This document shows, piece after piece, positions 6,897 through 35,637 of a stretch of DNA of 35,637 nucleotides. Below the pieces are notes generated by a model, which searched no databases, was not told the origin of the DNA, and saw nothing but the letters and a program-made list of their open reading frames with translations. A program made the position numbers and the translations under genes. This DNA comes from Rhodospirillales bacterium. GTDB taxonomy: Bacteria > Pseudomonadota > Alphaproteobacteria > TMED109. The stretch lies in assembly GCA_028824295.1 (NCBI GenBank), contig JAPPED010000004.1, forward strand, positions 1-35,637. The letters are read 5' to 3'. Every line of letters begins with the position of its first letter. Position 1 is the first letter of the stretch.

Positions 6897-7464
6897 TCTT
6901 CGTCTCCTCAAGTCCAGTACCGGCCTATTGCGCCCACGCCGGCGCGCTTGACCTGCCCCCGCGCCACGCCGAGTCTGACGGCCGGAGGCGCCCTGCGCAA
7001 GGCTGTTGGCCGGTCCGGGGGTCCGATCCATGCACCCGGCCGTCCAGCTGCCGGCAGGTTCGCCGACCAAGGAATTCCGATTTGCGAGGAGCAACGCCAT
7101 GTCGGCCGCTCGACCCGTGTGCCGAAGCTGCACCCTTCAATCCGCCGGGCTCACAATCGGGAACCACCGACGGGAACGACGGGACAAATCCGGATGCCCG
7201 CCAGGTCGTGCCCAAATCCCAAGACTTCGGAGACATCATCGCGGCAGCAACCGTCCGACGACCGGCCGGGCAGCCGGGCAGGCTCCCGTCCGCGTCCGAC
7301 ACCGGGCGAACCCTGACAACCACGCCGATCCCGGTTCAAGGGCTGGTGTCGGTCAATCACTGAGGAAAATCTCTGGACGGAAGCGCGCCGCCGGTGGTCG
7401 AGACCGGCGCCCGGTACTACCCTGAGGGCAGCGCTCCACATCGTCGGTCCGAAGGGTTTTATCC
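6897..7464. other. Intergenic stretch without a supported gene
   Basis: 568 bases between divergent genes. It should hold the promoters of both. Several open frames cross it on both strands, but none has a recognisable domain, a ribosome site or a consistent third-base pattern, and I see no hairpin with a T-run. Confidence 0.5.
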
Positions 7465-7797
7465 ATGCATGTCGTCATTTTCGAGGTCGAGCCAACTGCA
7501 GACGGCAAGGACGAGTATCTGGATATCGCCGGACAGCTCCGGGAAGAACTGGAAACCATCGACGGCTTCATCGCGATCGAACGTTTTGAAAGCCTGGTGC
7601 AGCCCGGCAAGATCCTTTCTCTCTCGACCTGGCGGGACGAGGCGGCGATCAAGGAATGGCGTGAGCGCACCGCGCATCACGCAGCTCAGGAGAGAGGCCG
7701 AACCGCGCTGTTCGAGCACTACCGCATTCGGGTGGCCGAAGTCGTTCGCGACTATGAACTCGAGACCTCTCCATGGCGCCCTAGCGTGCGCCAGTGA
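7465..7797 (+). CDS. ABM-domain (antibiotic biosynthesis monooxygenase-like) protein
   Basis: 110 residues, compact dimeric ferredoxin-like fold. The order of elements fits the ABM family: first strand MHVVIFEVEP, a helix DEYLDIAGQLREELETI, DGFIAIERFES, then the ILSLSTWRDEAAIKEWR strand-helix with the conserved Trp, and an HHAAQERGR helix followed by FEHYRIRVAEVVRDY. Members range from quinol monooxygenases to heme-degrading enzymes and many have no known activity; nothing here picks out one. The ribosome site is weak (GGGTTT about nine bases upstream). Confidence 0.85.
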   Translation: MHVVIFEVEPTADGKDEYLDIAGQLREELETIDGFIAIERFESLVQPGKILSLSTWRDEAAIKEWRERTAHHAAQERGRTALFEHYRIRVAEVVRDYELETSPWRPSVRQ

Positions 7798-24688: not shown

Positions 24689-24731
24689 TTCTACGGAATT
24701 CTATGGAGTATGGAATAGGCTGATTCTACAG
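24689..24731 (+). repeat. Three TTCTAYRG repeats beside the attachment core
   Basis: TTCTACGG at 24689-24696, TTCTATGG at 24699-24706 and TTCTACAG at 24724-24731 lie in the AT-rich stretch between the core and the integrase gene. The first two are exactly 10 bases apart, one helical turn. They are candidate arm-type binding sites for the integrase or operators for its promoter. Confidence 0.35.
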
Positions 24732-24822
24732 TATTTATTCAGGAATGCTTGCGGTCCTGACACCTCTCGACTACCCTCTTTCTTGGTGGAGAGAAATTCC
24801 GATCGCATTCCGAGAACGCTTC

Positions 24823-25977
24823 ATGCCGAGACTGACCAAGCGCCACATTGACAACCTGCCCGCCCGCGAGAAAGAGTACTTTGTCTGGGACGATCAGCTC
24901 AAGGGCTTCGGCGCCCGCGTCTATCCCAACGGCGGCAAGCGCTACGTCGCCCAGACCTTCCGCCGGGGAAAGACCATCCGCGTCCAGATCGGCCGCCACG
25001 GGGCCCTACCCTTCGAGCAGGCCAAGGCGCGGGCCCGGAAGATCATCGCCGATGTCGACGACGGCAGAAACCCGAACAAGGAGAAGGAAGCGGAACGCCT
25101 GTCGCCCACGGTGGCGGAGTTGGCGGATCGGTTCCTGAAGGACTATGTCCCCGCCCACTGCAAGCCGCGCACCGAGGTGGAGTACCGGCATGCGGTGAAG
25201 CGCTACATCGTCCCGGCGCTGGGCTCGGTCAAGGTGGTGGCGCTCGCGCGCGACGACGTGGCCGCACTGCACCACGAGATGCGGGACAAGCCCACCCAGG
25301 CCAACCGGACGCTCGGGGTGGTCTCGAAGATGATGAACCAAGCCGAGGCATGGGGCCTACGGCCCGACCGGTCCAATCCGTGCTACCACATCCGGAAGTA
25401 CAAGGAGACGAGGCGCGAACGCTTCCTGACCACGGAGGAACTGGCCCGCCTGGGGAAGGCGCTGGACGGGGAGGAGTCGTTCGCGCCCGCGGCGGTGACG
25501 GCGTTACGGCTGCTGCTTTACACCGGGGCGCGGCTGTCCGAGATCCAGACCCTGAAGTGGGAGCATATCCGGGGCGACCGGATTCACCTGCCCGATAGCA
25601 AGACAGGGGCCAAGACAATTCCGCTGAACGGGCCGGCGCTCGAGGTGCTGGCCAACACGGAGCGGGTCGAGAGGAACCCCTACGTCATCGTGGGCACCGG
25701 CGAGGGTGCGCATCTGACCGACCTGCAGAAGCCATGGCGGCGGGTGCGCAAGGCGGCCGGACTGGAGGACGTGCGGATCCACGACCTGCGGCACACATTC
25801 GCGTCCGAGGCGGTGATGCGGGGCGAGAGCCTGCCGATGGTGGGGCGGATCCTGGGTCACACCCAGGCGCAGACAACTTCCCGGTACGCCCACCTTGCCG
25901 ATGATCCGCTGCGCAAGGCGTCGGAACGGATCGCCTCGTCGCTCAGGCTGGCAATGCACAGACAGGGCGGGAGCTGA
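24823..25977 (+). CDS. int: Tyrosine integrase of the tRNA-fMet element
   Basis: 384 residues from ATG 24823 (an upstream reading of 26 codons has no ribosome site). N-terminal DUF4102-like arm domain (MPRLTKRHIDNLPAREKEYF, FGARVYPNGGKRYVAQTFR), SAM-like core-binding domain (about 93-190), and a catalytic domain with all active-site residues: Arg237 in GARLSE, Lys260 in DSKTG, His320 and Arg323 in HDLRH, His346 in LGHTQ and the nucleophile Tyr355 in SRYAHLAD. It is the P4-type used by genomic islands that enter tRNA genes and reads away from the attachment core. Intact and probably active. Confidence 0.92.
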   Translation: MPRLTKRHIDNLPAREKEYFVWDDQLKGFGARVYPNGGKRYVAQTFRRGKTIRVQIGRHGALPFEQAKARARKIIADVDDGRNPNKEKEAERLSPTVAELADRFLKDYVPAHCKPRTEVEYRHAVKRYIVPALGSVKVVALARDDVAALHHEMRDKPTQANRTLGVVSKMMNQAEAWGLRPDRSNPCYHIRKYKETRRERFLTTEELARLGKALDGEESFAPAAVTALRLLLYTGARLSEIQTLKWEHIRGDRIHLPDSKTGAKTIPLNGPALEVLANTERVERNPYVIVGTGEGAHLTDLQKPWRRVRKAAGLEDVRIHDLRHTFASEAVMRGESLPMVGRILGHTQAQTTSRYAHLADDPLRKASERIASSLRLAMHRQGGS

Positions 25978-26161
25978 CGGGCGAAACCACACGATCCGCT
26001 ATGAGATGAGCGGTAGCGCAAGGGAGCCGAAGTACGCATTCGGAGCTGTTAGCCGATGCATCGCTCGATTGCCGTGATCAAGTCGCCCACTGGCAACCAT
26101 GGATTCTGCGGCCGATACGAGAGGGTCGCGGGCCGGACAGCATCACTGTGTTCAGGTGCGT

Positions 26162-27412
26162 CTATGGCCCCAGTGCGCCAATCGGGATTACTCCCACGTC
26201 CTGCATGCCTGCGTGGCCGTAACCGTTTGGCACGATGACCGACAACGCCGACGGCTTTTCGTGGTCGCTCCCCTCCATGCGCTTGGCCAGTCTGTTCAGA
26301 TTTTTCGCGCCCTCCGCCACCCAGCGGTCACCCAGCTTGATCTCGAAGGCCGCCCAGCGCCCGTCCGCCGCCTCAACGATGGCGTCGACCTCCAGCCCTT
26401 CCTTCTCCCGATAGTGGAACACTTGGGCGTCCGCCGCTTGGGCGTAGATGCGCAGGTCACGGATGACCATGGACTCGAACAGCAGACCAAGGAACTCCGG
26501 ATCGGCAGCCAGACGTGCAGGTGTGGTTCGCAGGGCCGCCGCGGCCAGCGAAGGATCCACGAAGTGCCGGACAGGCGTCGCCCGGAGCATCGTGCGCGAC
26601 CTCAGGTGCGGCGACCATGCGGGCTGGTCTTCCACCAGCATGAGCCGCTCCAGCGTTTCGAGGTACCCGGCGGCCGTATCCGCCTTCAGGCATTCGCCGT
26701 CGCGGCCGACATCGCGCGCCAGCTTCGCCATCGCGACCGGGGTTGCGATGTTCCGGGCCAGCGACCGCAGAAGGCGTGCCACCTTGATCGGATCTCTCCT
26801 CTTTTCGCTGACTCTGGAGATGTCCACGCGCCGGATTTCGTCCAGGTAGCCCCGGTTCATGCGAAGGACCGACCGCAAGGGCTTGCCGGCGTTCCCTGGC
26901 CAGCCGCCAGCGCAGACGAGTTCGGCAACGGAAGCGATCGATAGATCGGACCGCGGCGCCCGCTGCCGCTCGCCGTCAAGGAGCCTTCGCAGTGAAATCT
27001 CGCCGGAAGAGCGTCCCGCCTCGTAGAGCGACAGCGGGCGCATGCGAAGTCGGGTAAAGCGCCCGGCCCCGGTATGGCGGGTCGTGTCGTCTGCGGGAAC
27101 CGCGGAACCGGTGAGGATGAATTGGCCCGGCCGGGAACGCTGGTCCACCATCCTCCGAACATGATTCCAAATTACGGGCTCCAGTTGCCATTCATCGATC
27201 AGACGCGGCATATCGCCTTCGAGCACGACTGCAGGATCGACGCCGATCAGGCGGCGGGCATTGTCGTCGATGTCCAGCAATACCTTGCTCGCGGCCGCAC
27301 GCTTGGCGGTTTCCGTCTTCCCGCAAGCCTTGGGGCCTTCGATGAGCACCGCCCCGGAAGCCTCAAGCAGTTCCGCCAGTTCCGCATCGACGATTCGTGG
27401 GAGGTAGTCCAT
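26162..27412 (-). CDS. DUF4143/AAA_14 ATPase
   Basis: 416 residues. Walker A GPKACGKT at 26-33 and a LIDEWQ Walker B-like strand at about 76-81, followed by QFILTGSA (sensor 1) and the MRPLSLYEAG segment typical of AAA_14 proteins. The C-terminal DUF4143 domain has a winged helix and a restriction-endonuclease-like pattern: GLEVDAIVE and WAAFEIKLG (the D...ExK residues). This family is very common in islands and archaea; it is sometimes discussed as an anti-phage or toxin-like element, but its role is not established. It is preceded by a 500-base region without genes and stands alone. Confidence 0.88.
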   Translation of the reverse strand: MDYLPRIVDAELAELLEASGAVLIEGPKACGKTETAKRAAASKVLLDIDDNARRLIGVDPAVVLEGDMPRLIDEWQLEPVIWNHVRRMVDQRSRPGQFILTGSAVPADDTTRHTGAGRFTRLRMRPLSLYEAGRSSGEISLRRLLDGERQRAPRSDLSIASVAELVCAGGWPGNAGKPLRSVLRMNRGYLDEIRRVDISRVSEKRRDPIKVARLLRSLARNIATPVAMAKLARDVGRDGECLKADTAAGYLETLERLMLVEDQPAWSPHLRSRTMLRATPVRHFVDPSLAAAALRTTPARLAADPEFLGLLFESMVIRDLRIYAQAADAQVFHYREKEGLEVDAIVEAADGRWAAFEIKLGDRWVAEGAKNLNRLAKRMEGSDHEKPSALSVIVPNGYGHAGMQDVGVIPIGALGP

Positions 27413-27935
27413 CGGTCACCGAGCCACCAAACAGAGAAATGCTGTAACGTATCGTCGGAATCCCTCGACGGCAAGACGAAAAGGATCATCTAGAGGGTGA
27501 TTCGGAGAGTTTCCAGAGAGTGATTTGGCGGATCATAAGCGGGCGGTTCGGGGAATTATCGGCGAGTGATCGAGCGGAATATCAACGGTGGCGTCTTCGC
27601 AAGGCGACCGGGTCGAAAGGCGTGCAGATTCATTACCTTCGCTACAGGCTCATCGCGACTCGGATCGAAACGGGTCAGTTCTTCTTCCCTCGCAGCATCG
27701 GGAAACGCCCCAGGGCCGCACTCAGGCCGTCCACCCGGGCGGTACCGACGCAGATCAAGTCAGTCGAAGGCGCTTGGCGGCCACGAAGTGATACCCGATC
27801 GAATTCTTCAGGAACTCGTCCTCCGCCTCTCCTGTCGATTCGGGCTGGCCTGATAGAAGTCGACTCAATCTTGAGTGATTTTGTCGTTGAGTCGGGCTTG
27901 AACGGCTCTTCGAATGCGGCATCAGGGCCATTTTC
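27413..27935. other. Intergenic stretch without a supported gene
   Basis: 523 bases between two minus-strand genes, including the DUF4143 promoter. Around 27490-27580 the plus strand has several GAGTGAT-like near-repeats (GAGGGTGATTCGG, GAGAGTGATTTGG, GCGAGTGATCGAG), unevenly spaced. I see no recognisable coding sequence; the minus strand near 27780-27850 reads FLKNSIGYHFVAAKRLRLT but has no start. Confidence 0.4.
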
Positions 27936-28229
27936 TCATACCAGTTCCAAGCGTAGTTCACGCCCCACGGCCTGCGCGGCCTTAAGCATGGTGTCGAGCT
28001 GAACGCGGTCATTCTCAGGGTCGAGGAGGCGATCCAGACGCGCACGGCTGGTGCCCATGCGCCGCGCCATCTCGGATTTCGTGACCGCGCCTTTGTCCAT
28101 GGCTTGGCGAAGCTGCCAGGCAAGAACGGCCTTGACGGCATGCGCCTGGGTCTCCTCGAAGGTGCCCTGCTCGCGCAACAACTCTTCCAGGGAAGAACCA
28201 ACATGCGGGTTGTTTGTTTTTCTATTCAT
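27936..28229 (-). CDS. XRE-family antitoxin (HigA type)
   Basis: 97 residues, ATG 28229 overlapping the end of the toxin remnant. Helix-turn-helix of the XRE type: AWQLRQAMDKGAVTKSEMAR, RMGTSRARLDRLLDPEND, with the last helix VQLDTMLKAAQAVGRELRLE. The 35-residue N-terminal extension (SSLEELLREQGTFEETQAHA) is the toxin-wrapping part seen in HigA2-like antitoxins paired with Gp49-type toxins. It should bind its own promoter and neutralise the toxin. Because the toxin gene is broken, this may now be a lone antitoxin. Confidence 0.82.
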   Translation of the reverse strand: MNRKTNNPHVGSSLEELLREQGTFEETQAHAVKAVLAWQLRQAMDKGAVTKSEMARRMGTSRARLDRLLDPENDRVQLDTMLKAAQAVGRELRLELV

Positions 28230-28596
28230 GGCGTTTCAACTCCTTCATGCGTTGTTCAGCGAGGTCCAGGTCCCGATCCGGCGTCTTCCGGGCCTTCTTG
28301 ATGAAGCCATGAAGCGCATGTAGCTGGTCGTCAGACACACAAACCAGCACCCGTGCAATCCGCCCGCCCAGGAAATCCGTATGCACACAAGCCGCGCCGG
28401 GAGGAGATTGCCCGGCAGAGCGGCATACCGATGGGCCCGCCAAACTCAACGGTTGCCAGATCGATCCCTATCCGGCGCCGATCTTCCTCGGAGAGCTCAA
28501 CCAGCCACTTCCGAACTGGCTCGTTCCCCGATAGCGTCCGGAAGAATCGGACCTCAATGCGTTTCGGTGCTTTTGGCGTCGTACCTCACAAGATAC
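28222..28596 (-). pseudogene. HigB/Gp49-type toxin, frameshifted
   Basis: Frame one carries the start of a Gp49-like (RelE-superfamily) toxin: IEVRFFRTLSGNEPVRKWLV, ELSEEDRRRIGIDLATVEF and GGPIGMPLCR. The homology then changes frame around 28390-28410 and goes on as FLGGRIARVLVCVSDDQ and LHGFIKKARKTPDRDLDLAE to KRHE and a stop in the antitoxin's start region. There is also no ATG or GTG in the first frame, while a neighbouring frame opens GTG...RYDAKSTETH before hitting a stop. Intact relatives run about 115 residues without a break. As it stands no full toxin can be made unless the ribosome shifts frame. Confidence 0.75.
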
Positions 28597-28786
28597 TCTA
28601 TGCCTCAAGAGGCTCTTGCAAAAAAGGTCTAAACGAGCGGAAATAAGGTCGGAAACGGTCTGAAGCTGGCGGGACCGGCCGCCGCCTTCCGGTATCCTGG
28701 GGTTGCTGAAGACGCAGGATGGAAGGGACGGCGACCATGTTCCTGCAGGCGCACGACCTCATCGTGAGTGTGAGACCGGTACGGCG

Positions 28787-29881
28787 TCATTGCAGACAGG
28801 TGGATTCCGTACTCCACAAACGATCGTCAATCTGACTATTCGTGGGATTCTCAGGGCAATTGTCATTGTTCTGGTATTGAAGCACGGAACGCCCCCCGCC
28901 ACCTGCCGCGCAACAGGCAATGTCATCTTGAATTGAGTCAATGAAGTGGCTAGTGGTACGTGAGATGGACGTAATGCGGCCAGTCTGAGTGTTGTCCGAA
29001 AAAAATTGGCCTACCCCGTCTCGCTGCGACACATAAGACTCTAACTTTACGTGCTCTTGAGGCTCTGTTGGATTCGTCAATCCAATGCTTCCGAAAGCAT
29101 AGGCATCAATGTGAGGGCATGACTCTGAAACAGCAGATGCAACATGCTGAACGGCCGCACCGCCGAGTGAGTGCCCAGCAATCGTTACACGATCGCTTTT
29201 GGGCTCGAAGGCCTTTTCCGAGTTGACTTGCAGAAGGCCCCGTTCCCGCGAGACCTCGCATATGGATTGGATAGCGAATGTCGCAGCGGGAAACGGACAA
29301 TCTTCTCCGGTGAAGTTGGCCGCGATTTGTCTCAGGTCGAGGATTCGGGTACCCGGAAAGCCAATCTGTAGATCACCGTCCGTACCATGGATTTGCAGTG
29401 GGGCCCACGCGCGGGATTCGAAATCGCGTGCAGCTGTATCCACCTCGATAAACAGACTTCCTGCCAAATCATAGATTCGCAATACCACAGCCAAGAACAT
29501 GTTGTTTACTCTACAACTGACAAGAATTGTGTCCCCGATCGAAGTTACATTGACACTCTTCTCATTCCTAGTGCCATCCAACTCGCGGCGAACTGTTCGT
29601 TCCAGTTCATCGATGTGCTTTGGATCTATCGAAAGCAGGTGTGTTTTGGGGAGCAGTGCATCGGGGCGGCATGACCAGATGTCACCCTTGCGATCGCTTG
29701 GTCGCTCCGCTAGTTGGGAGTATTTGAATAGCGATAGTAGATGATCTCTCGTACTCTGGGCTGCCGCGTCACAGGCGGCTATGCGCATCGCTCCTGTTTG
29801 CTCTTGTCCAAATGCGTTGGATGGAATGAAACCTAAGAAGACCAAGACAACCAATGTCGAATGAACGCAAGTAGTCCGCAT
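28787..29881 (-). CDS. Exported class-3 lipase-like protein
   Basis: 364 residues from ATG 29881, preferred to one 14 codons upstream because GGAGGTGGAC stands just before it and a signal peptide follows at once (STLVVLVFLGFIPSNAFG). The catalytic residues of a class-3 lipase can be placed: GHSLGG with Ser238, RDGV with Asp288 and SHFID with His312. Ten or so cysteines suggest disulfides in the mature, exported protein. The codon usage and GC are clearly lower than in the core genes. Within a defence island it may be an accessory enzyme; its substrate is unknown. Confidence 0.8.
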   Translation of the reverse strand: MRTTCVHSTLVVLVFLGFIPSNAFGQEQTGAMRIAACDAAAQSTRDHLLSLFKYSQLAERPSDRKGDIWSCRPDALLPKTHLLSIDPKHIDELERTVRRELDGTRNEKSVNVTSIGDTILVSCRVNNMFLAVVLRIYDLAGSLFIEVDTAARDFESRAWAPLQIHGTDGDLQIGFPGTRILDLRQIAANFTGEDCPFPAATFAIQSICEVSRERGLLQVNSEKAFEPKSDRVTIAGHSLGGAAVQHVASAVSESCPHIDAYAFGSIGLTNPTEPQEHVKLESYVSQRDGVGQFFSDNTQTGRITSISRTTSHFIDSIQDDIACCAAGGGGRSVLQYQNNDNCPENPTNSQIDDRLWSTESTCLQ

Positions 29882-30700
29882 TGTCCACCTCCAGCATTTC
29901 GCGCGCAAGGAGGTTCCCATCATACGGCGTACGATCGCAGCTTCCCGAAGGAGCGCGCCATGGCGACCGGCCGGAATCTATTGTTCTCGTGGGACGCTGT
30001 AGATAATGAACGGGCCTTCCACCTGGATCGAGGATCTCGTTTTGAGGACAGTGAGGGCCACCGCCCGTGTGGAACGTGTGTTTGCTATGGCTGAGAACTT
30101 CGTCCTTGAGCGTGGAAGCCACTTGGCCAACTTGACGATGACCTCATCGCCAGCCCAGACTGGCGAACCCGGACCTGCGCGCCTCACCCCAGCCTGTGCT
30201 CCTGACCTAAGACGCTATCGGACCGGATAAAGCGGGCCACTCCGCGGCACAGGAATAGGTCCGACGGGGCTTCCAGAATGTCCCACGATGCGAGCTTCCG
30301 CCAGACCCAGCAAGCACTCCCGGGTGTATTCGTCCAAGATGTTCAGGACTTGGAACGCCCGGCCGTCAGATGCAGCGTTGACCCGTCGTAGCCGTCCCCG
30401 GCGATTACGACGACCCGTCAGATGAACCCCAAACGCCCGGTCTACGGCCACGCGGCTTCTACAGCCGAGTGCCACCGGATTGGCGATGCCCGGCAGTTGC
30501 CGTTCACCCAGAAATCTGGTAAATGGCGGACTCAACCAAGCCACTATCGTCAACATCGATGTGAGTTTGCCAGAGCCGCGCAAGCCGCCAGATCAAGTCA
30601 CGGGGTCGACATGGACGCGCCTGACCTCTTGCCTTTGACGTGGAAATTGAAAGTGAGGTACCACGACACGGGCCGACTGGCGTTTGAGAGCTAGGGGCCG
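29882..30700. other. Decayed mobile DNA between lipase and methylase
   Basis: 819 bases without an intact gene. The middle and right part carries a transposase remnant (separate entry). The left part has open frames but no recognisable domain. GC here is higher than in both neighbours. It should hold the promoter of the methylase cassette, with an AGGGG ribosome site at 30693-30697. Confidence 0.5.
30240..30450 (-). pseudogene. Transposase (rve integrase core) fragment, IS3/IS481-like
   Basis: The minus strand reads SDGRAFQVLNILDEYTRECL LGLAEARI. This is the block around the second catalytic Asp of retroviral-type integrase cores in IS3-like transposases (DGRxFRxLNIxDExTRECL). Nothing matching the first Asp, the DDE glutamate or orfA can be read in frame; the upstream residues are scrambled Arg/Gly-rich sequence. 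No terminal inverted repeats were found. Confidence 0.65.
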
Positions 30701-32056
30701 GTGCAGTTTATCGACTTATTTGCAGGCCTCGGAGGATTTCATCTCGCGCTTGGTCGTCTGGGCCATGAGTGCGTATTTGCGTCGGAAGTCGATCGAGATC
30801 TCGCTTCCCTTTATGAGAAGAACTTTGGTATCACTCCGGCGGGTGACATCCGCGCAGTAGATTTAGCGGACATTCCCCCACATGATATTCTCTGTGCAGG
30901 CCTCCCCTGTCAGCCTTTTTCTAAGGCTGGAGAGCAACAGGGCTTGGACTGTCCCCAGTGGGGCGATCTTGTCGATTATGTTGTCCGCATCTTGCGCTAT
31001 CGCAAGCCAACCTACTTTATCATTGAAAATGTTCCAAACCTAGTTCGGCACAACGAAGGAAAGACGTGGAAGAGAATCAAGAGCCAACTCCGCGACGCGG
31101 GGTATGAAGTTGCCGACCACAAGCTGTCTCCGCACCAGTTCGGCGTCCCTCAAATTCGTGAGCGAGCTTTCATCGTTGGTCAGCGAGATCGCTTAGCGAC
31201 CTTTTGCTGGCCTGCCCCGACATTGCCTAGCGAACTGTCAATTCGAACTGTGCTGGAACGAGATCCGAAGGACGCGCGTCAGCTTTCCAGCCAGGCCATA
31301 GAGTATTTGAAAGCTTGGCAGGACTTCCTCAATGTTTTTCCGAGCGATGTGGAGCTTCCGTCGTTCCCCCTTTGGGCGATGGAATTCGGTGCGAGTTACC
31401 CTTATGTCGGGCAAACTCCTCACTCCACCAACTACGGCGGCCTCGACCGCTGGCGGGGAAGCTTCGGTCGACCGCTCAGAGGGTTGTCGCCGGACGATGT
31501 CAAGGCGACCCTCCCTCCCTATGCGCGTGACAGAGTCGACGTCTTCCCGGACTGGAAGATCGACTTCATTCGGAAGAACCGACTTTTCTTTTGCCGGCAC
31601 AAGGCAATCATCCAACCTTGGCTCCCCGCTATCCTTTCGTTTGCGCCCAGCTTCCAGAAGCTGGAATGGAACTGCAAGGGGTGTGAGCGCGACATCTGGA
31701 AGCTCGTCATTCAGTTTCGTGCATCCGGTATCCGCGTGAAGCGCCCGACCACTGCGCCTTCCCTAGTCGCCATGACCACGAGCCAGGTTCCTGTCATCGC
31801 TTGGGAGCGTCGCTATATGACCCCTCGCGAATGCAGTCACTTGCAGAGCATGGCTTCCCTCAAGCATCTTCCCGATGCCAAGGGCACCGCCTTCAAGGCG
31901 CTTGGCAATGCCGTAAACGTTGATGTGGCGGAGGCAGTCGCCCGCGCCTTGCTGCCAGCCAGCATTTCGATGCCCGTCGACAAAGCTACCCGGCCAAATG
32001 TCTCGTACAACTGGCCTGCCCCACAACCAGCGGACGCCTTGGCTCATGTCGGATGA
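30701..32056 (+). CDS. C5-cytosine DNA methyltransferase (Dcm/type II)
   Basis: 451 residues from GTG 30701, with AGGGG a few bases before it and homology beginning at once. Motif I FAGLGGFHLAL (7-17), motif IV PCQPFS with catalytic Cys70, motif VI ENV (109-111), motif VIII QIRERAF (151-157), a long target-recognition region (about 190-380) with an unusual CKGCERD segment, and motif X KALGNAVNVDVAEAVA near the end. It transfers a methyl group from SAM to carbon 5 of cytosine in a site I cannot predict. First gene of a coupled cassette; its stop overlaps the GHKL ATPase start by 11 bases. In that setting it most likely protects host DNA. Confidence 0.93.
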   Translation: MQFIDLFAGLGGFHLALGRLGHECVFASEVDRDLASLYEKNFGITPAGDIRAVDLADIPPHDILCAGLPCQPFSKAGEQQGLDCPQWGDLVDYVVRILRYRKPTYFIIENVPNLVRHNEGKTWKRIKSQLRDAGYEVADHKLSPHQFGVPQIRERAFIVGQRDRLATFCWPAPTLPSELSIRTVLERDPKDARQLSSQAIEYLKAWQDFLNVFPSDVELPSFPLWAMEFGASYPYVGQTPHSTNYGGLDRWRGSFGRPLRGLSPDDVKATLPPYARDRVDVFPDWKIDFIRKNRLFFCRHKAIIQPWLPAILSFAPSFQKLEWNCKGCERDIWKLVIQFRASGIRVKRPTTAPSLVAMTTSQVPVIAWERRYMTPRECSHLQSMASLKHLPDAKGTAFKALGNAVNVDVAEAVARALLPASISMPVDKATRPNVSYNWPAPQPADALAHVG

Positions 32057-33596
32057 AGACGGGCTCGACACTCTCGATACAGTCAGCATCCGGCCAGGTG
32101 TCAGCGTCTTATCTGTTCTACGGCACCTGAACTACAAGCCTTGGTTCGCACTGGCGGAGTTTGTCGACAACGCTGTCCAAAGCTTCTTCGAGCGCCGAGA
32201 TCTACTTGAGCAACTTCACGGCAAGAGCTTCAAGGTCAAGGTTCAAATCAACATCGATTCTAGGCGGCCGGGGAGAATTTCCGTCATAGACAACGCTGGC
32301 GGAATCGCTCGGAAGGATTTTCCCCGCGCGTTCAGACCCGCGGCAGTACCCGTGAACACATCTGGCCTCTCAGAGTTCGGCATGGGAATGAAGAGCGCCG
32401 CTTGCTGGTTCTCTCCCAGATGGTATGTGCGCACCAAAGCTCTCCGAGAACCGGTCGAGCGAACCGTGAGGTTCGATGTAAACAAGATCGTACACGACCA
32501 ACTCGAGGAACTGGACATTACCCGAGCCTCGGCTGATGAAGAACTGCATTTCACCGAGGTCGTGCTCGAAGATCTTCATCACGTTCCTGTCAAGAAGACC
32601 GTCAACAAGATCAAAGAGCATTTGACAGATATCTATCGGGTCTTCATCCGAGAAGGCCTTCTCGATCTCTATTTCAACGATGAGCGCCTCACATATGCAG
32701 AGCCTACCGTCCTTACGACCCCCTATGTTCGGGACAAAGGCGGCAAGACACGAACGTGGCGCAAGGATATACACTTCGACTTTGGCGAAGGTCTGTATGT
32801 CACAGGCTTCGCCGCCCTGCGTGACCCGGGGAACTTCGCTAGATGTGGCTTTGCCTTGTTTCGCCGCGGTCGGCTCATTCAAGGTAGCGGCGACGAGGGT
32901 TACCGCCCACGGCTCATCTACGGACAGCCGGGCAGCTTTCGCTCGCTACGCCTGTTCGGTGAGTTGCATCTTGAGGGCTTCGAAGTCAGCCACACGAAGG
33001 ACGGCTTCCGATGGGACGAGAATGAGCAGCCCTTCCTCGAACTCCTGAAGGATGATCTGGACTCCGACGATCTCCCCCTCCTCAGGCAGGCCGATGACTA
33101 TCGGGCCCTCGCTTCGAAGAACATTCGCAAGCGAACTGCGCAGAAAGCTGTGGATCGAGCCGTCGAGACAATGCAGCAGACGCTGCCGGCAGCGCTTCCT
33201 GCTATAGCCGACGAGCCTCCTGCCGAGACACCAACCCAATCCCTCTCGGCGCAGACAGTCCTGGCACACCGGGAGCTGACGATCGACTTTCGGGGCAAGC
33301 AGTGGCTGATTAAGGTTGAACTCACGGACGAGCCGGCGGAGAGCCAGTGGCTCTCGGTCAGCGACCAACTCGGCAGCGACGCCGCGCCTAACGTGATCGA
33401 GATTCGGGTTGCCCTCGCGCATCCATTCATGGTGAATTTTGCCCAAACAGACCCTGTAGATGTCGAAGCGCTTCTCCGAGTGGCGGCGGCTCTGGCCTTG
33501 GCCGAAAAGTTGGCCCGCCTTTCCGGTCAGAAATACACGGGTACGATCCGACGCAATCTAAACGACATCCTTCGTGAGGCGCTCGCTCAGATATGA
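32046..33596 (+). CDS. GHKL/MORC-like (paraMORC) ATPase
   Basis: 516 residues from ATG 32046, inside the end of the methylase gene. GHKL ATP-binding motifs: N box WFALAEFVDNAVQS (Glu38, Asp41, Asn42), G1 IDNAGGI (81-87), G2 LSEFGMGMKSAA (108-119). The arrangement (short lead, then RHLNYKPWFALAEFVDNA) is that of prokaryotic MORC-like proteins and not histidine kinases; there is no H box or receiver. An S5-like second domain follows (to about 330), then a charged linker and a C-terminal domain with beta strands (LTIDFRGKQWLIKVEL). MORC and MutL ATPases clamp or loop DNA on ATP binding. It should act with the methylase and the Z1 protein. Confidence 0.85.
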   Translation: MSDEDGLDTLDTVSIRPGVSVLSVLRHLNYKPWFALAEFVDNAVQSFFERRDLLEQLHGKSFKVKVQINIDSRRPGRISVIDNAGGIARKDFPRAFRPAAVPVNTSGLSEFGMGMKSAACWFSPRWYVRTKALREPVERTVRFDVNKIVHDQLEELDITRASADEELHFTEVVLEDLHHVPVKKTVNKIKEHLTDIYRVFIREGLLDLYFNDERLTYAEPTVLTTPYVRDKGGKTRTWRKDIHFDFGEGLYVTGFAALRDPGNFARCGFALFRRGRLIQGSGDEGYRPRLIYGQPGSFRSLRLFGELHLEGFEVSHTKDGFRWDENEQPFLELLKDDLDSDDLPLLRQADDYRALASKNIRKRTAQKAVDRAVETMQQTLPAALPAIADEPPAETPTQSLSAQTVLAHRELTIDFRGKQWLIKVELTDEPAESQWLSVSDQLGSDAAPNVIEIRVALAHPFMVNFAQTDPVDVEALLRVAAALALAEKLARLSGQKYTGTIRRNLNDILREALAQI

Positions 33597-33634
33597 GCCA
33601 TATTCGCGAGAGTACACTGGGAAGCGGTCCTTGA
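33593..33634 (+). other. 13-codon ORF between the GHKL and Z1 genes
   Basis: ATG 33593 overlaps the GHKL stop (ATGA) and reads MSHIRESTLGSGP before TGA 33632-33634, which in turn overlaps a TTG that could start the Z1 gene. It may couple translation of the two genes, or be the true N-terminus of the Z1 protein separated by a one-base frameshift. Confidence 0.3.
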
Positions 33635-35610
33635 CCGCCGATCATCCCACTACCGTTGTGACGCCAATCCCGACTACACACGTGCCCGGTGCACAATGGC
33701 AACCCACTGTAGGACCGGAGGCTCGCGGCGTCGTTGAAAGAAAGCGGCTACCCAGAGAAGCTGGCGAGGCAGTCATCGAAGCTGCTGCATCCATCCTGGC
33801 ACGCGGAACCCGCCCGACCAGTCCGCAAGATGATCGGACCGGTCTTGTCGTGGGGTACGTACAGAGCGGTAAGACCCTCTCCTTTACCACTGTCATTGCC
33901 TTAGCTCGCGACAATGGCTATCGGCTTGTTGTTGCCATAGCTGGCACTTCAACTTCCTTACTCAAGCAGTCCACCCGGCGCTTGCGCAACGACTTGTATG
34001 TTGACGATGTTGACGGCTATCTCAGATGGTCAACCTTTACAAACCCTGACGACACTGAAGGAAACCGGCGTTCAATTGAGCAAGTTCTCGACGAGTGGCG
34101 TGATCCTCTCGTTCCACAACATGAACGCCCCACAGTGCTCATAACTGTCATGAAGAATCATCGACATCTTGCAAACCTCTTTGCGCTACTAAACCAACTT
34201 AACTTAAGCGACGTTCCAACACTCATCATTGACGACGAAGCCGATCAGGCCAGTCTCAATACACTAGTTAATCGGGGCAGAGAAAGTACAACATATGGAA
34301 GGCTGCTCGAACTAAGAGATACCGTGCCGTGTCACACGTTCCTTCAATATACAGCTACGCCTCAGGCGCCGCTGCTCATCAACATTATTGATGCTCTCTC
34401 CCCCGATTTCGTTGAAGTTCTGGAGCCGGGCAGGGACTATGCGGGCGGACGCTCATTTTTTTCGGAGACCCGCGGATTGGTCAGCGTCATTCCGTATGAG
34501 GATGTACCGGCCGACGACAATCCGCTCGTAGATCCACCGTGCTCGCTGCTGGATGCGCTCCGCGTTTTTCTGGCGGGTGTTACCTCTGGCCTGATCCAAG
34601 GCCGCAGCCGGAGCAATGCGAATCGATCGATGCTGGTCCATCCATCGAGAGAAACCGCACAGCACCAAGAGTATCGCATTTGGATTGGTCAGGTGTTTGA
34701 CGAGTGGCGACGCGTACTGGCACTGCCGGAAGCGGATCCAGATCGAGTTGACCTGTTGCAGGACTTTCAAGAAGCCTGCTCAGACTTGGCGCTCACTGTT
34801 CCTGATCTTCCCTCCTTCGATGAGCTCAAAGCTATGCTGCCCAGAGCCTTCCGCCTTACGAGCATTGAGGAGGTCAATACGAGAGCAGGCCGTGGAACTC
34901 CATCGATTGATTGGAGTCGCTCATACGGCTGGATCCTTGTGGGCGGCCAAGCAATGGATCGTGGCTTCACGGTGGAGGGCCTGACAGTCACCTACATGCC
35001 CCGCGGCCCGGGGGTCGGCAATGCCGATGCTATACAGCAACGTGGGCGCTTCTTTGGCTACAAGCGCCCATATCTCGGGTATTGCCGCACCTACCTTGAG
35101 CATGACGTTGTCTCCGCGTTCGAAGAATACGTGGAGCACGAGGAGGAAATGAGGCGACAGCTTCAGCAAGTGCGCGATTCTGGCAGCCCTCTCAGCGACT
35201 GGAAGCGTGCCTTCATCCTATCGCCTGCTCTGCGCCCCTGCAGGAGCAACGTCATTCAGTATGACTACGCGCGCGGCCGTTACGCTGATGCATGGTTTGC
35301 ACCTCGCACCGTTCTTTGCGCTCCGAGTGTCATTGATGGCAATCGACGAGCAGTGCTGAGCTTCCTCGACGATCTAACGTTTAGTCCAAATGCGGGAAGC
35401 CCGAACCGAGAACCTGCTCAGATGCATCACATCTGCCGTGATGTACCGATGGTCGACATAATCAATGACCTCCTTGTCCCATACCGACTAACGGCATCGC
35501 GCGATACTCGAGAGATTACTGGAGTGCTGTTGCAGCTATCCCACGCTCTGGAGCAAAATCCAGATGAACGCTGCGTAATCTATGGGGATTATATACCCAC
35601 GTTGACATAG
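33631..35610 (+). CDS. Z1-domain SF2-like ATPase
   Basis: 659 residues if started at TTG 33631 (GGGAAG six bases upstream); GTG 33574 and GTG 33658 are alternatives. Helicase-type motifs: Walker A GYVQSGKT (75-82), Walker B IIDDEAD (199-205), motif III-like YTATPQAP (240-247), then about 200 residues later the Z1 hallmark GGQAMDRGFTVEGLTVTYMP and QQRGRFFGYK, equivalent to motifs V and VI. Z1 proteins are found almost only in predicted restriction systems, beside a methylase, a MORC/MutL-like ATPase and a nuclease. It probably uses ATP to move along or remodel non-self DNA. It carries no nuclease motif that I can see, so cutting needs another gene, probably past the window edge. Confidence 0.88.
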   Translation: MTADHPTTVVTPIPTTHVPGAQWQPTVGPEARGVVERKRLPREAGEAVIEAAASILARGTRPTSPQDDRTGLVVGYVQSGKTLSFTTVIALARDNGYRLVVAIAGTSTSLLKQSTRRLRNDLYVDDVDGYLRWSTFTNPDDTEGNRRSIEQVLDEWRDPLVPQHERPTVLITVMKNHRHLANLFALLNQLNLSDVPTLIIDDEADQASLNTLVNRGRESTTYGRLLELRDTVPCHTFLQYTATPQAPLLINIIDALSPDFVEVLEPGRDYAGGRSFFSETRGLVSVIPYEDVPADDNPLVDPPCSLLDALRVFLAGVTSGLIQGRSRSNANRSMLVHPSRETAQHQEYRIWIGQVFDEWRRVLALPEADPDRVDLLQDFQEACSDLALTVPDLPSFDELKAMLPRAFRLTSIEEVNTRAGRGTPSIDWSRSYGWILVGGQAMDRGFTVEGLTVTYMPRGPGVGNADAIQQRGRFFGYKRPYLGYCRTYLEHDVVSAFEEYVEHEEEMRRQLQQVRDSGSPLSDWKRAFILSPALRPCRSNVIQYDYARGRYADAWFAPRTVLCAPSVIDGNRRAVLSFLDDLTFSPNAGSPNREPAQMHHICRDVPMVDIINDLLVPYRLTASRDTREITGVLLQLSHALEQNPDERCVIYGDYIPTLT

Positions 35611-35637
35611 CGGCCCCTTCCGCCTAGCCTGCCGCCT

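Follow-up and report, generated by a model that had tools for sequence, protein, structure and literature searches.

At the edge of an assembled contig, an apparently complete set of defence genes raises the question of whether the missing partner lies just beyond the last base or whether the system itself is broken. Such a set occurs in the window considered here, which is the whole 35,637-base contig C4 (JAPPED010000004.1) of the Rhodospirillales bacterium assembly GCA_028824295.1 (3.02 Mb in 35 contigs, completeness 97.9%). At its right end, genes for a cytosine methylase, a GHKL ATPase and a Z1-domain ATPase follow one another on the + strand. An initial annotation, made from the sequence alone, read them as a restriction-like system whose nuclease was simply off-window. 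Our analysis leads to a different ending: the locus is probably a methylase-MORC-Z1-DUF4420 restriction operon, of the third MORC operon type, that has been interrupted by a transposon in Z1 and that methylates but does not restrict DNA.

It is very probable that the operon in this genome is interrupted inside Z1 by a transposon of the IS1595 family. The match to every relative stops near Z1 residue 650 of 740, at base 35583. A contig from a Defluviicoccus metagenome-assembled genome (L097) keeps 88% DNA identity to the window from 30622 to exactly 35583, and its Z1 runs on past the breakpoint to the full 742 residues. The truncated gene for the Z1-domain SF2-like (superfamily 2-like) ATPase occupies 33631–35583 (+ strand), with 651 native codons of about 740. 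The initial annotation had carried it to 35610, whereas native sequence ends at 35583 and the last 8 codons and stop (35608–35610) of the frame are transposon sequence. Ordinary gene calling hides the break, since the chimeric frame also closes neatly with a stop codon. The start of the gene, earlier placed at or inside the end of the second gene, is more likely the TTG at 33631, 34 bp past the GHKL stop, because relatives start there.

The outer end of the transposon fills 35584–35637 (+ strand). It opens with a 24-bp terminal inverted repeat, GGGGATTATATACCCACGTTGACA (35584–35607, + strand), exact copies of which end contigs C26 and C2, and it is preceded by the octamer TAATCTAT (35576–35583, + strand), presumably the left copy of a target-site duplication, judging from the duplications at sister and related copies. 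The 55-mer at 35583–35637 is identical to the last 55 bases of C26, and the two face outward. Since the majority of other contig ends in the assembly join through exactly 55 bases, 55 is the assembler k-mer and C4 and C26 stop at the same repeat; C4 stops because it enters a repeat common to C26, so that the cassette is interrupted and not merely cut by the window. C26 and C2 can be read as flanking a single copy: GTTTTTCT, an 8-bp target-site duplication, precedes the repeat on C26 and follows it immediately on C2. This sister copy (L022, L093) sits between a gene for a phosphoenolpyruvate-synthase regulator (Kinase-PPPase) and rho. A diverged complete element at C23:76757 (L096, 4758–7821) measures 3064 bp between 8-bp copies of ATTCGTTG; its 24-bp repeat, with 3 mismatches, lies next to an IS1595 transposase gene (DDE_Tnp_IS1595, 134 bits), and the GGG-type terminal repeat is shared between this transposase-bearing element and the window's insertion. 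Target duplications of 8 bp, or 7–9 bp, have been described for the IS1595 family (PMC12561309). Because the C23 element has extra open reading frames (ORFs) besides the transposase, it is better regarded as a small transposon than as a plain insertion sequence. The C2-side end matches its transposase-proximal end, which points to a transposase gene oriented opposite to Z1 in the window's copy. The 24-bp repeat was absent from 384 other genomes of the class, and a DNA search of plasmids and viral contigs with the terminal 54 bases gave no match.

The insertion is predicted to have cost the window's Z1 protein its C-terminal ~90 residues. In the lost part, 9 positions are conserved in at least 93% of 83 sequences. 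In an AlphaFold model of the intact Z1 of L097 (predicted local distance difference test, pLDDT, 84), whose structure matches SF2 helicases, the breakpoint falls inside strand 647–652 of a C-terminal alpha/beta region, and the cut removes the confidently predicted strands 659–663, 701–712 and 715–728. The Z1 C-terminus was found nowhere else in the assembly by a query that matches in control genomes, and searches of the contig and the assembly with a single protein, the Pfam DUF4420 model and a six-sequence profile returned no DUF4420 nuclease, while the same six-sequence profile gave matches in two control genomes. The view that the nuclease is simply off-window therefore gives way to a Z1 split by an IS1595-family element, with neither missing piece elsewhere in the assembly. 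An adjacent gene of the restriction-endonuclease fold (E-D-ExK), which belongs to the third MORC operon type, is likewise not present in this assembly, and this copy counts as an interrupted member of that type and not as a complete system. With Z1 lacking its C-terminal ~90 residues and the nuclease not found, the locus most likely methylates but does not restrict. Ratios of non-synonymous to synonymous substitution (dN/dS) between the window genes and L097 are roughly 0.08–0.15 (for the methylase, dN 0.085 and dS 0.56); they show that purifying selection maintained the genes, and give no date for the insertion.

The three genes themselves are well supported, and Pfam matches together with a motif check bear out the earlier description of three consecutive genes with clear catalytic motifs. 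The DNA (cytosine-5) methyltransferase of Dcm type (30701–32056, + strand, 451 aa) matches PF00145 (217 bits, E 4.7e-64) and TIGR00675 (208 bits, cut-off 100.65) and keeps its catalytic motifs DLFAGLGG, PCQPFS and ENV intact; a cytosine methylase is a frequent, not obligatory, member of the third MORC operon type. As had been noted, it overlaps the second gene by 11 bases. That gene (32046–33596, + strand, 516 aa) encodes a MORC-type GHKL-S5 ATPase that matches HATPase_c_3 (50 bits, E 4.4e-13) and carries N, G1 and G2 boxes (EFVDN, DNAGGI and FGMGM). The motif GhXhhpXXRhl of the S5 region is what unites MORCs (Iyer et al., 2008; PMC2292703); it takes the form GFALFRRGRLI in the window, and all 90 relatives carry it, against 23 of 2000 shuffles. 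In an AlphaFold model of the window ATPase (pLDDT 85.7), the top structural matches were SMCHD1 (Z 21.6) and MORC2, MORC3 and MORC4 (Z 19.6–20.6; one MORC2 chain 18.1), followed, among the chains listed, by Hsp90 and TRAP1 at Z 18.5 or below, a small margin; these matches span residues 16 to about 355, and the C-terminal 160 residues lie outside them. The MORC label of the initial annotation is thus borne out by both motif and fold, although PADLOC, NCBIfam and Pfam models recognised the gene only as HATPase_c_3. The Z1 protein matches PF10593 (125 bits, E 3.8e-36), with GYVQSGKT (Walker A), DDEAD, YTATPQA and QQRGRFFGYK all intact. Its helicase motif reads DAIQQRGRFFG in the window and DTxQQRxRFFG in relatives, and corresponds to the DThhQXuRhFG signature of Iyer et al. 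(2008).

What an intact operon looks like can be learned from relatives of the GHKL protein, which were gathered from plasmids, viral contigs, class-level genomes and 84,980 species genomes. The 90 loci compared comprise the nearest 80 of 288 relatives and ten from other searches, and contain a few duplicates; they are not an unbiased sample. With M for the methylase, G for the MORC GHKL ATPase, Z for Z1 and N for the DUF4420 nuclease, the order M-G-Z-N on one strand occurs in 67 of these loci (one with a split Z1), so that the co-location elsewhere on which the earlier reading depended is found; many of the remaining loci are truncated at a contig boundary or carry their methylase at another place. 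The genes co-localise far above chance expectation across Proteobacteria, Acidobacteria, Chloroflexi, Bacteroidota, Planctomycetota, Actinobacteria and others, and on a Rathayibacter plasmid the annotated order is dcm, ATP-binding protein, Z1 and PD-(D/E)XK protein. The nuclease of the relatives is DUF4420 (PF14390), of PD-(D/E)XK type, whose residues E152, D178, [ED]187 and K189 are kept in 73 of 73 sequences; fixed gene order and this invariant triad support the restriction-like reading. Searches of PDB sequences with the nuclease profile gave only chance matches, to ribonucleotide reductase, and with the Z1 profile no notable match. Between G, Z and N, pairwise distances show correlations of r 0.89–0.91 (largest of 999 permutations 0.17 or less), and methylase distances correlate with them less tightly (r 0.56–0.65). 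This is consistent with an effector of three parts that stay together and a specificity module that is swapped more readily.

A Vsr-like ORF lies close by in 26 of the 90 loci. In the Defluviicoccus contig, DUF4420 follows immediately after Z1 and is itself followed by a 98-codon ORF matching the C-terminal part of Vsr, as the initial annotation had guessed for the missing neighbours. Upstream Vsr-like sequence in this region (7112–7560) lies in another frame and is broken by stops, and the vsr of this relative may itself be damaged. Elsewhere, a Vsr gene stands straight after Z1, in the place of DUF4420 (L103), or a Vsr-like gene precedes the methylase (L133). Shortened or split Z1 genes were seen in three further loci (L101 9537–10505, L010 15660–17905 and L019 5271–7518), and disrupted copies of the operon may therefore be common. 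The cassette is also found on six IMG/VR contigs classed as viral (L014–L019; 55–63% protein identity), which suggests that prophages or comparable mobile elements carry it, unless these contigs are misclassified.

Gene order, motifs, fold resemblance and the insertion junction with its family are observations; every biochemical step of the mechanism proposed for intact operons is one that we infer, and we consider it likely, by analogy, that they work in this way. The cytosine methylase would mark a short host sequence and so protect self, while the MORC ATPase would dimerise on ATP and clamp or loop DNA, acting as a licensing switch for the restriction engine. This engine would consist of Z1 and DUF4420 together: both would bind unmethylated sites, Z1, as an SF2-type ATPase, would move along or remodel the DNA, and the PD-(D/E)XK protein would cut it. 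Where Vsr is present, it would repair T:G mismatches that arise from deamination of 5-methylcytosine. The proposed engine follows the precedent of CglI and NgoAVII. There the Z1-bearing N-protein, a DEAD ATPase, hydrolyses ATP only when its nuclease partner is present and the DNA has unmethylated sites (PMC4267653). In VcSduA, a GHKL ATPase is coupled to a PD-(D/E)XK nuclease, and phage defence needs both activities (PMC12137116).

Several facts weigh against reading the locus as an interrupted restriction operon of this kind. The right junction of the window's insertion is not in the assembly, so neither its duplication nor the fate of the downstream genes is visible, and the genome may miss about 2% of its sequence. 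In the literature searched, no biochemistry or phage assay of this operon type was found. Moreover, M-G-Z stands without an adjacent DUF4420 in at least six loci (L103, L104, L105, L131, L133 and L136), in which the contig runs on for 1.1–5.8 kb past the set, leaving room for the gene, so that the nuclease is not strictly required for retention. One could suppose that the operon is intact in the living genome, with the contig end an assembly artefact and the nuclease on an unbinned contig. The contig graph does have many breaks and some free ends, and the transposon itself is missing from the assembly, which means that short contigs were lost. We nevertheless regard this as quite unlikely, because the contig reads 54 bases past the Z1-transposon junction, so that junction 55-mers existed in the reads; the boundary coincides with a perfect terminal repeat, and at its sister copy an 8-bp duplication is present; and no branch toward an uninterrupted allele halted the contig at 35583. 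A lost nuclease contig, moreover, fits the insertion as well and does not restore Z1. It is possible, though less likely than not, that the downstream half (the Z1 3' end, the nuclease and vsr) was deleted, perhaps when copies of the transposon recombined, and that methylase, MORC and truncated Z1 now stand alone. This would agree with the failure to find a Z1 C-terminus or DUF4420 in a 97.9% complete assembly by searches whose positive controls matched, but the transposon and the partner flank are missing too, so the absence is also expected if the piece is merely unbinned.

The loci without an adjacent nuclease, together with this interrupted copy, also hint that the nuclease could be dispensable. 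In eukaryotes, MORC proteins silence transposons, and their presumed origin lies in bacterial restriction operons such as this one. By that comparison, methylase, MORC and Z1 could act on their own in defence or silencing and not cut DNA at all: MORC would compact or loop foreign DNA that is unmethylated, and the nuclease would be an optional extra. The MORC fold and motif and the three open window genes, with their low dN/dS against the relative, agree with such a module. It is unlikely, however, since the nuclease is as tightly coupled in evolution to G and Z as these two are to each other, its active site is invariant, and the low dN/dS mostly reflects the time preceding the insertion. An assignment of the locus to the Mza or Druantia defence systems, as a variant of either, is highly improbable. 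Z1 and DUF4420 match MzaC and MzaD, and the methylase matches the DruM2 model, but scores lie far below NCBIfam cut-offs and the set contains no AIPR or DruE-like gene. Membership of Mza was rejected on NCBIfam equivalog scores (MzaC 113 bits against a cut-off of 1500, MzaD 38 against 420), that of Druantia because the PADLOC matches of the Z gene were only Helicase_II and MzaC and the conserved neighbours are G, Z and N, and that of CglI/NgoAVII because the set has no phospholipase-D nuclease (R-protein), the nuclease of the relatives being DUF4420.

As a probable restriction operon interrupted in Z1, the locus is most similar to the third MORC operon type (PMC2292703), with which it shares the MORC GHKL-S5 ATPase, the SF2 helicase with its C-terminal motif, the cytosine methylase, and, in relatives, the restriction-endonuclease-fold gene and sometimes Vsr; it differs in that Z1 is interrupted and the nuclease was not found. 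The combination of Z1, DUF4420 and a cytosine methylase has been reported as a putative defence system with types I and II (Miller et al., 2022; PMC9523054). Compared by description, that system has the same three core families, wide taxonomic spread and association with repair endonucleases or MORC proteins, but its Z1 has 925 aa against about 740 here and its other genes (AIPR etc.) are not in this set. MzaABCDE pairs a Z1 protein with a PD-(D/E)XK protein of the same broad families, although equivalog cut-offs are missed widely, MzaB matches are marginal and MzaA and MzaE have none. CglI, NgoAVII and BceSIV (PMC4267653) combine a 5-methylcytosine methylase with a DEAD ATPase that bears Z1 and acts together with a nuclease, and so offer a tested model of the Z1 step, but their nuclease is of phospholipase-D type with a B3 domain and they have no MORC ATPase. 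VcSduA/paraMORC3 (Shedu type I-D, PMC12137116) likewise couples a GHKL ATPase to a PD-(D/E)XK nuclease, with both needed against phage, but it is one fused protein with paraMORC3 in place of MORC and has neither methylase nor Z1. The gene combination is therefore already known, as the third MORC operon type of 2008 whose core was reported again in 2022. The interrupted member is new, as are, from the relatives, the co-evolution result, the invariant nuclease triad and the M-G-Z loci without adjacent DUF4420. The collected relatives are compact intact operons of about 6 kb with defined active sites, and would make the 2008 prediction directly testable. The window copy serves mainly as a caution: genes that look like a full set where a contig ends may have been broken by a transposon.

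The rest of the window offers some context for the cassette. No sigma-70-type promoter was matched across 30200–35637, and no tRNA gene was found within the window. An ORF on the - strand at 30215–30583, just upstream of the cassette, carries DGRAFQVLNILDEYTRECL and resembles an IS3-type transposase remnant, although a Pfam search gave it no match. The G+C content falls from 65.5% (1–24500) to 60% (24700–30600) and to 56% in the cassette, and a tyrosine-type phage integrase with an Arm-DNA-bind_3 domain lies at 24745–25977; drop and integrase together fit a mobile island beginning there. Between integrase and cassette, at 26162–28229 on the - strand, are genes for an AAA_14/DUF4143 ATPase and a small helix-turn-helix (antitoxin-like) protein.

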